Part shown: one piece after another, positions 62,430-64,000 of the stretch | Layout of the letters: each line of letters begins with the position of its first letter | How positions within the stretch are numbered: the first letter of the stretch is position 1 | NCBI RefSeq assembly: GCF_024198235.1 | Contig: NZ_JAKCFB010000033.1 | Span: 1 to 64,000, forward strand | Source: Myxococcus dinghuensis | Lineage (GTDB): Bacteria; Myxococcota; Myxococcia; Myxococcales; Myxococcaceae | Direction of reading: 5' to 3' | Length of the DNA stretch: 64,000 bases | Translations under genes and position numbers: made by a program | The notes under the pieces: model-generated | Database searches by the model: none | The model's input: only the letters and a program-made list of their open reading frames with translations | Told to the model about the DNA's origin: nothing

Positions 62430-62470
62430 AAAAGGAAACGCCCCGGACCTCGCGAAGAGGGCCGGGGCGT
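62430..62470 (-). terminator. Intrinsic terminator of the predicted small RNA
   Basis: 14-bp stem with one mismatch (arms 62457-62470 and 62438-62451), followed on the minus strand by TTTCCTTTT (62438-62430). No protein gene ends here, so it must serve an RNA transcript from the minus strand. Confidence 0.75.
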
Positions 62471-62630
62471 CTCGGAAAGAGGGACCGCGGGGAGTGATTC
62501 TCCCAGCGGACCCGTGGGCCCAGAGGGGGAGGGGGGGGACCCCTAGGCCCAACAGCTTGAAAAGTCGACCGTTGCCTCAACAACGCCCTGGGTCGCGCAT
62601 ATTTCCGCTCCGCGACCGCGCCCGCCCGGT
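62430..62630 (-). ncRNA. Predicted structured small RNA, about 200 nt
   Basis: Bounded by a near-consensus promoter (62637-62665) and an intrinsic terminator (62430-62470), with no credible ORF between. Several stems are visible in the minus-strand RNA: GGGCCTAGGGG...GGGCCC-type pairing (around 62510-62552), CCGC-GGGAG-AATCA-CTCCC-GCGG (62489-62513), and CAACGG...CTGTTG (62551-62577). Length and promoter type would suit a 6S-like or trans-acting RNA, but I could not match it to a known family. Confidence 0.5.
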
Positions 62631-62636
62631 GTGACG

Positions 62637-62665
62637 ATCATAAGAACCGACCCCCTTGCCTTCAA
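62637..62665 (-). promoter_or_regulatory. Sigma70-type promoter of the small RNA
   Basis: On the minus strand, TTGAAG (62665-62660) and TATGAT (62642-62637) with a 17-bp spacer: four of six and five of six consensus matches. Predicted transcript start near 62630. It points away from tilS. Confidence 0.55.
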
Positions 62666-62736
62666 CCGCACGCGCCTCTGCAACCTCGTCACCCGACATT
62701 CCATTCCGCGCCTGTCCGATGGCACTCACTGGCCCC

Positions 62737-64000
62737 ATGACCTCCTTGCTCACCAGGACGCTGGTGGACGCGTACGTCCGCCTCGGACTCGAGGGCCGCT
62801 CCGTGTTGCTGGCCGTCTCCGGAGGGGCGGACTCCGTCGCGCTGCTGGTGGGCACGGCGCTCGTGCGCGAGCGGCTGCGGCTGCGCGTGGAGGTCGCCAC
62901 GTTGGACCACGGCCTGCGGGTCGAGTCCCGAGCGGAGGTGCGAGCCGTGGTCGCGTCCGCCGGGCAGCGGGGGCTCGTGTGTCACGCGCGCGAGCTCCAC
63001 CTGCTGGGTGGGGCCGGCGTCGAGGCGCGGGCGAGGACGGCGCGCTACGCGGCGCTGGAGGCCGTGCGCGTGGCACGTGGGCTGGACGTGGTGGCGACCG
63101 CGCATACGGCGGATGACCAGGCGGAGACGCTGCTGATGCGGCTGGCGCGGGGCTCCGCGCTGCGCGGGGCGGCCAGCATCCAGGAATCCCGCCCCGGGCT
63201 CGTCCGGCCGCTGCTCGGGCGGACGCGCGAGGAGCTGGTGGCGTTCCTGGCGGAGCAGGGTGTCGACTACTCGACAGACCCGATGAACGCCGACCCCTCG
63301 TTCTTCCGGGCGCGGGTCCGCGGGGACGCGTTGCCGGCCCTGTCGCGCGCCGCGGGCTTCCCGGTGCAGGCGCACCTGGCCGCGTTCGCGCGGCTGGCGG
63401 CGGAGGACGACGCGCTGCTGTCGAGCATGGCGGACGCGGCGTGGCGCAGGCTCCGCATGGAGGACGGCGCGCTGGAGGCGGTGGGCGTGCGCGCGCTGGA
63501 GTCGCCCTTGCGCCGCCGTGTCCTCGCCCGCCTGTTGACCGAGCACGCGGTCGAGGCCGACGACGCGACGCTCTCGCGCGTGCTGCGCGCGGTGGAGGAG
63601 GGTGGCAGCGCCACGGTGGGGCGTGGCCTGCGGCTCCGGGCCACCGGCGGGCGCGTGCGCTGCGTGGCGCCGGAGGGGCGCGCGCGGGGGGGGCCCGGGC
63701 CGGAGCTCCGCCTGCGGGACGAGGGCGCCTCGGGCGAGCTGGAGGGCACGGGCTGGGGCTTCCGCGTGGCGCGAGGGGCGCCGCCGGCGGGCGTCCACGG
63801 CCTGGCGCTCGGGGCGAGCACGCGCTGGCCGCTGACCGTGCGGACGCGCAAGCCCGGAGACCGGATTCGCACCGCCGCGGGACAACGCAGGCTCCAGGAC
63901 CTGTTGGTGGATCTTCGAGTGCCCGCGGAGTCGAGAGATGCGCGGCCGGTGGTGCTGGACGCCGCGGGCACGGTGGTGTGGCTCCCAGGCCTCTGGTCAC
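62737..64000 (+). CDS. tilS: tRNA(Ile)-lysidine synthetase, truncated by window end
   Basis: 421 residues visible; the 3' end lies outside the window. PP-loop ATPase motif VSGGADSVAL near residue 30, VATLDHGLRVESRAEV, and HTADDQAETLLMRLARGS, then the TilS substrate-binding and C-terminal domains (TVRTRKPGDRIRTAAG). TilS converts C34 of CAT-anticodon tRNA-Ile to lysidine so it reads AUA. ATG 62737 or an in-frame ATG at 62719 is the start; neither has a clear ribosome binding site. Confidence 0.92.
   Translation, partial: MTSLLTRTLVDAYVRLGLEGRSVLLAVSGGADSVALLVGTALVRERLRLRVEVATLDHGLRVESRAEVRAVVASAGQRGLVCHARELHLLGGAGVEARARTARYAALEAVRVARGLDVVATAHTADDQAETLLMRLARGSALRGAASIQESRPGLVRPLLGRTREELVAFLAEQGVDYSTDPMNADPSFFRARVRGDALPALSRAAGFPVQAHLAAFARLAAEDDALLSSMADAAWRRLRMEDGALEAVGVRALESPLRRRVLARLLTEHAVEADDATLSRVLRAVEEGGSATVGRGLRLRATGGRVRCVAPEGRARGGPGPELRLRDEGASGELEGTGWGFRVARGAPPAGVHGLALGASTRWPLTVRTRKPGDRIRTAAGQRRLQDLLVDLRVPAESRDARPVVLDAAGTVVWLPGLWS

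Follow-up and report, generated by a model that had tools for sequence, protein, structure and literature searches.

Does the stretch between tilS and a pair of TIGR04563 genes in the window (the whole 64,000-nt piece of DNA analysed here) hold a small RNA gene of its own, and if so, of what kind? A preliminary description of positions 62430–62665 had proposed an unannotated structured RNA of about 200 nt, read from the minus strand between its own promoter and terminator, and had raised the possibility of a 6S-like function. The locus is flanked by the divergent neighbour tilS on the plus strand (62719–63999; TIGR02432, 140.2 bits), which extends beyond the window end and has an uncertain start codon, and, downstream of the RNA and on its own (minus) strand, by a tandem pair of TIGR04563 genes (62267–62064, 123.1 bits versus a cut-off of 65, and 62056–61778). 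A similar tandem pair lies 3′ of the RNA in many relatives.

Structure and covariation of the RNA

We find that the minus strand carries a sigma70-like promoter, TTGAAG-N17-TATGAT (62665–62637), identified by consensus scan and conservation, and that this is the sole promoter-like site picked up by the scan between 62000 and 63000, where 0.1 would be expected from shuffled sequences. The terminator hairpin is present as proposed: on inspection, hairpin 3 (62470–62438) is followed by TTCCTTTT on the minus strand, and its stem is paired in 99.6% of cells in an alignment of 29 sequences. The stems in between are borne out by folding, as the 212-nt stretch reaches −110.5 kcal/mol compared to −95.6 ± 5.4 kcal/mol for shuffled sequences (z = −2.8), with 2 of 200 shuffles folding as well and 198 worse. 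Promoter, hairpins and terminator do span 62665–62430, in keeping with an RNA of about 200 nt, but the conserved unit is smaller, an 85–90-nt core that consists of hairpin 1, with its 13-nt C-rich loop, and then hairpin 2, an earlier terminator-like element.

Hairpin 1 (12 bp, 62551–62515, minus strand) is defined by pairing and covariation in 51 sequences. Its pairs are formed in 99.3% of cells, a fraction that falls to at most 70.4% when the partner is slid; both-side changes occur at 4 pairs (34 of 500 shuffles reach 4) and in 28 cells, against a shuffled mean of 5.7 (0 of 500 shuffles reach this), and these shuffle counts are not probabilities, since the sequences are related and the structure was taken from the fold of one of them. 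This is the covariance that the preliminary description had named as a check, with a stem that varies by compensated pairs in aligned myxobacterial sequences and a loop that is nearly constant. The loop, UCCCCCCCCUCCC (62539–62527), is our proposed seed. Among the genomes recovered through DNA similarity, 47 of the 47 inspected keep it; so do all 30 of the 30 best loci found with a covariance model, R1, and 7 of ten further R1 matches (altered in L188, L189 and L194). Its first C-run varies in length from 6 to 8 C. This constancy is partly built in, as L051–L111 were found by a loop-demanding pattern and the training set of R1 consisted of sequences that bear this pattern.

Hairpin 2 (62513–62481) and its UCUUU tail form the terminator-like element T1 (62513–62471, minus strand). 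Across 70 distinct sequences its stem spans 10–18 bp (mean 12.4), and at least 5 T within 10 nt follow it in 39 of the 70; the window's own tail has 4 T. Outside the window's family hairpin 2 mostly resembles a textbook intrinsic terminator, and the tail in the window's genus is just UCUUUCC. Members of the window's family have an additional hairpin, hairpin 3, followed by a T-rich tail of its own; hairpin 3 and UUCCUUUU together form terminator T2 (62470–62430, minus strand). Here 4 of 9 pairs have both partners changed (a count of four is reached in 11 of 500 shuffles) and 13 cells show both-side changes (0 of 500 shuffles reach this), in an alignment that holds 29 of 40 filtered sequences and leaves out five that lack a third hairpin and six near-duplicates.

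The region had also been described as free of open reading frames, and this stands in part only: some frames are open across the stretch (e.g., 62552–62064), but the spacing of the conserved blocks shifts by 1–2 nt among relatives, which argues against a protein-coding reading. In sequence, the locus has the features of an intergenic, intrinsically terminated sRNA, namely a promoter, a structured body, a Rho-independent terminator and no conserved ORF.

Distribution and genomic context

A DNA similarity search matches the locus in 48 of 61 genomes, among them all 27 of the window's genus, and in other families of the order the match is limited to the core (approximately 62553–62512), at 82–100% identity. 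Scanning 84,980 species genomes with a pattern of the core returns 61 stretches, the titles of which denote myxobacteria or deltaproteobacterial or proteobacterial MAGs, bar one labelled Comamonas. That stretch (L062, BNCN01000007.1, titled Comamonas sp. KCTC 72670) carries a myxobacterial RNA locus, and its label looks wrong. The covariance model R1, built from 51 sequences, matches 126 of the 195 genomes searched in the phylum, 108 of its 149 good-quality genomes, and is found in 39 of 90 genera. All but one of the 126 positive genomes (125) belong to the window's order; the remaining one, G163, comes from another order of the class and also has a divergent tilS. At least 20 genomes of the window's order, some of them at least 95% complete, have no R1 match, and these misses are real.

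Synteny was followed in 123 entries, 116 of which have at least 600 nt of upstream sequence (7 are too short), and tilS is divergent and within 700 nt of the RNA in 115 of the 116, although these are not independent events, as many represent one genome fetched twice or close relatives. The only entry without a divergent tilS is L197, a weak R1 match. This second match in genome G033 scores 24 bits, is not beside tilS, and was treated as a chance match. In one genome of another family the RNA is present as two tandem copies approximately 98 nt apart (L040, G037:C55:28290-28471).

Of 111 entries, 80 have a TIGR04563 gene downstream on the strand of the RNA and within 1 kb, an arrangement that would suit a cis-acting leader or attenuator of that gene, in which hairpins 2 and 3 would terminate transcription conditionally. 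The other 31 entries, however, have no such gene within 1 kb; it lies about 2–3 kb away or is unseen in the fetched stretch, and the RNA is present nonetheless. In three entries of one family (L035–L037) approximately 3 kb hold no visible TIGR04563 gene; the RNA there is nevertheless complete and has U-tract ends. Because the RNA persists where TIGR04563 is absent or more than 2 kb away, it is not simply a TIGR04563 leader, and these entries lead us to disfavour that reading, which we regard as very unlikely. The RNA is most likely its own transcription unit.

Promoter motifs and a candidate stress regulon

The sigma70-like promoter is well kept in the genus, where TATGAT is present in 27 of 27 loci and TTGAAG in 25 (TTGATG in 2). 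In a set of 80 upstream regions, obtained from 122 entries by reduction by length and 90% identity, a sigma70-like site scoring at least 9/12 occurs in 31, compared to a mean of 1.0 and a maximum of 3 in shuffles and 0 on the opposite strand. A second motif, GGAAT-N16-19-GTT, is present on the RNA strand in 62 of these 80 upstreams (shuffles, mean 1.5, maximum 5; opposite strand, 2), and an earlier count had found it in 73 of 87 upstreams (opposite strand, 2; shuffles, mean 1.8). Copies of this ECF-type motif lie near −160 and −60 relative to the GGGGUC of hairpin 1. The window carries P1, GGAATG-N17-GTT (equivalent to GGAAT-N18-GTT; 62707–62682, minus strand), and a proximal motif, P3, GGAAAT-N16-GTT (62606–62582, minus strand), with a predicted start at approximately 62575. 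P3 departs from consensus in the window, with GGAAAT rather than GGAAT, and does so throughout the genus; many other genera have GGAATG. SigR/SigH-type ECF promoters are given as GGAAt-N18-19-GTT, and some SigH-specific promoters of Corynebacterium glutamicum have the form GGAATG-N17-GTT (PMC10012870); P1 agrees in sequence with the SigR/SigH-type pattern. A rough consensus scan for sigma54-like sites reveals no enrichment upstream of the RNA, as the strand of the RNA scores at least 7/10 in 10 of 80 upstreams and the other strand in 12 of 80, and the best such site in the window scores 6/10.

The same motif is found before other genes. An RpoH-like sigma gene (G000:C32:140855-141583; also L310-L311, L324-L357 and L359) has a conserved GGAATG-N16-GTT upstream, both in the genus and in some genera close to it. 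The ECF-type motif lies 103–106 nt before its start in 25 of 25 genus loci, and of 5 loci in other families, 2 have it at a greater distance; in a wider set of 24 sigma loci, three of them second matches in a genome, it precedes five, all in the window's family (shuffles, mean 0.86, maximum 3; opposite strand, 2). This sigma gene is a possible regulon partner of the RNA. The motif also precedes prkA in 9 of 23 genomes (shuffles, mean 0.47, maximum 3; opposite strand, 0), and 8 of these 9 motifs are 86–92 nt before the start, with diverged spacers and both ends kept. The prkA-like kinase gene G000:C31:40856-42600 (L314, L378-L385) has GGAAT-N18-GTT upstream in eight genomes of seven genera. In the wider set the motif is missing before 19 of 24 sigma loci and 14 of 23 prkA orthologues.

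GGAATG-N16/17-GTT is further seen 80–130 nt before TolQ/ExbB-like genes in two families (L312, G000:C77; L321, G046); these two loci might hint at an envelope-related regulon. An autoregulated ECF gene was sought among the best 40 of 62 PF08281 matches, and GGAAT-N16-19-GTT is absent from approximately 1 kb before the domain in these (one has a GGAAA form); autoregulation of ECF sigma factors is reported as rare in corynebacteria as well (PMC10012870). Genome-wide counts of GGAATG-N16-18-GTT are 47, 49 and 17 in three genomes versus 7, 19 and 1 for reversed-pattern controls, and we do not take them as proof of a regulon, because a reversed pattern does not control for codon effects. Neighbouring genes were viewed for 14 of the genome-wide sites, either sites with similar spacers in two genomes or sites of G046.

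Proposed mechanism and candidate targets

We consider it probable, on the strength of the sequence and of analogy with characterized RNAs, that the locus encodes a stress-induced, Hfq-independent, trans-acting sRNA whose C-rich loop pairs with G-rich ribosome-binding sites to lower translation. Comparison establishes the structure, conservation, synteny and promoter-motif enrichment and finds no Hfq; we infer the transcript itself, its ends, the sigma factor, the Shine-Dalgarno pairing, the targets and the role in stress. Transcription would start at the housekeeping promoter (approximately 62630), at the ECF-sigma-type promoters P1 and P3 (the latter at approximately 62575), or at both kinds, and would end at hairpin 2 (T1) or hairpin 3 (T2), yielding species of roughly 95–200 nt, or longer from P1. 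Hairpin 1 would then present the 13-nt loop for pairing with G-rich Shine-Dalgarno regions, and this pairing would reduce translation of the targets without Hfq. Under an ECF-type promoter, the RNA may act as the repressor branch of a stress regulon; in near relatives this regulon could also take in the kinase PrkA and an alternative sigma factor.

Four points lead us to regard the loop as the seed that would pair with G-rich ribosome-binding sites. In Mycobacterium abscessus, the sRNA B11 represses by pairing its C-rich loops with ribosome-binding sites, and mutations in loop and target compensate one another (PMC10470900); in the Myxococcus xanthus sRNA Pxr, a single C-to-A change in the SL1 loop is reported to inactivate the RNA (PMC5684412); the Pxr SL1 loop is identical to part of ours, as set out below; and an Hfq search of 4 genomes finds none, where the same search detects Hfq in 5 of 14 control genomes. 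Counting against this view, the contact of Pxr with pxrA that is predicted in PMC11928866 involves SL3 for the most part and not the C-rich loop of SL1.

We then find that a strict pattern for ribosome-binding sites complementary to the loop, GGGAGGGGG-N3-10-ATG, gives 16 matches and 16 reversed-pattern controls in the window's own genome, and 22 versus 3, 27 versus 8 and 15 versus 6 in three other genomes. These are 80 matches in 4 genomes, 51 of them with an ORF of at least 60 aa; no orthologous gene is hit in two genomes, and the only related pair (BLAST E = 1e-4) lies inside genome G034. That this pattern search finds no conserved ribosome-binding-site targets, and that the 13-nt loop is nearly constant over much of an order, would also be consistent with a loop that is a protein binding site, for a cold-shock or KH-type single-strand binder, in an RNA that acts as a sponge or scaffold and does not pair with mRNAs. 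We judge this unlikely, as B11, the C-rich-loop sRNA put to the test in PMC10470900, works by pairing.

Comparison with known RNAs

The window was searched with Rfam release 15 at gathering scores, and the RNA region also at E-values up to 10, a search that the preliminary description had itself suggested. At gathering scores only a single tRNA is found in the whole window, and no family reaches its cut-off for the RNA region. The best weak matches are sX13 (RF02232; 24 bits versus 50, E = 0.017) and alpha-r14 (RF02344; 23 bits versus 58.8, E = 0.028), both of which, like our RNA, have C-rich loops in their consensus and were described from other bacteria.

The 6S-like function raised earlier is not supported. 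A length of approximately 200 nt and an intergenic position would suit 6S RNA itself, but we take this identity to be almost certainly wrong: the region has no match to 6S (RF00013) even at E = 10, its layout is a row of hairpins, and the genome has its own 6S gene elsewhere (G000:C32:110868-111063; 56.8 bits versus a cut-off of 46.4). The actinobacterial 6C family (RF01066) gives 0 matches in the window's own genome at E = 0.001, in a search that does give a signal, below cut-off, in C. glutamicum, and none in the region at E = 10.

Pxr (RF01812) is closer in kind, as it too is myxobacterial and consists of hairpins ending in a terminator; its SL1 loop, in the fold UCCCCCCC, has the same sequence as the initial 8 nt of our C-rich loop, such that the RNA might be a Pxr paralogue, a member of the Pxr family with the same targets. 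We hold this to be highly improbable. The Pxr model scores 19.8 bits on the RNA against a cut-off of 80, and aligns to hairpins 2–3; conversely, R1 reaches at most 10.1 bits (E = 0.051) on four Pxr loci, with broken pairs and a 35-nt insertion. Pxr is a separate gene with other stems and a predicted sigma54 promoter (PMC5684412), and no ECF-like motif is present in 260 nt upstream at the 4 loci examined. It is located between pxrR and MXAN_1079 (PMC5684412), and in this genome the 119-bit Pxr lies on another contig (G000:C74:13422-13529), whereas our RNA adjoins tilS; the RNA is thus not at the Pxr location. Of 61 genomes, 37 match the Pxr model, 29 of them above cut-off, and all 37 belong to the window's family, whereas the RNA reaches other families of the order.

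We conclude, as far as sequence comparison allows, that the locus probably encodes a C-rich-loop sRNA outside every Rfam family tested. The earlier designation as a regulatory RNA gains support from conservation, covariation and synteny; its designation as undescribed is unproven. The core sequence strings are not found in the literature searched, and the main texts of three structured-RNA surveys contain none of the myxobacterial terms searched. The RNA may already be on the list of Whitworth and Swain (2020), whose RNA-seq of M. xanthus yielded tens of ncRNAs according to the review PMC8538405, and which is also cited in PMC7694542.

A close parallel is 6C/B11, which share with our RNA a hairpin with a long C-rich loop, and for which pairing with G-rich ribosome-binding sites is demonstrated in the case of B11 (PMC10470900). 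They differ in having two C-rich loops (PMC10470900), where the RNA has one, in hairpin 1 only, and in belonging to another phylum; the RNA has tilS synteny. The 6C RNA of Mycobacterium tuberculosis acts without RNA chaperones, according to the title of a cited paper. The sigmaE-dependent enterobacterial sRNAs RybB and MicA share with the proposed circuit the logic of an ECF sigma factor that drives a repressing sRNA. RybB and MicA use Hfq and 5′ seeds.

Within the literature searched, Pxr is the only myxobacterial sRNA with a described function. Our RNA occurs in more families than Pxr, and its nearly constant loop and stress-type promoter, in hosts where no Hfq is found, suggest a second and perhaps more general post-transcriptional handle in these multicellular predators. 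It is conceivable, though we think it distinctly doubtful, that among the C-loop sRNAs of the order this RNA is the older one, and that Pxr, the gatekeeper of development, either descends from its kind or has the poly-C seed and targets in common with it. In that case an ECF sigma factor would carry stress signals, and sigma54 with Pxr nutrient signals, to one set of G-rich ribosome-binding sites, by which multicellular development would be gated. The RNA offers a clean test of the origin of the Pxr seed and of chaperone-free C-loop regulation outside actinobacteria.
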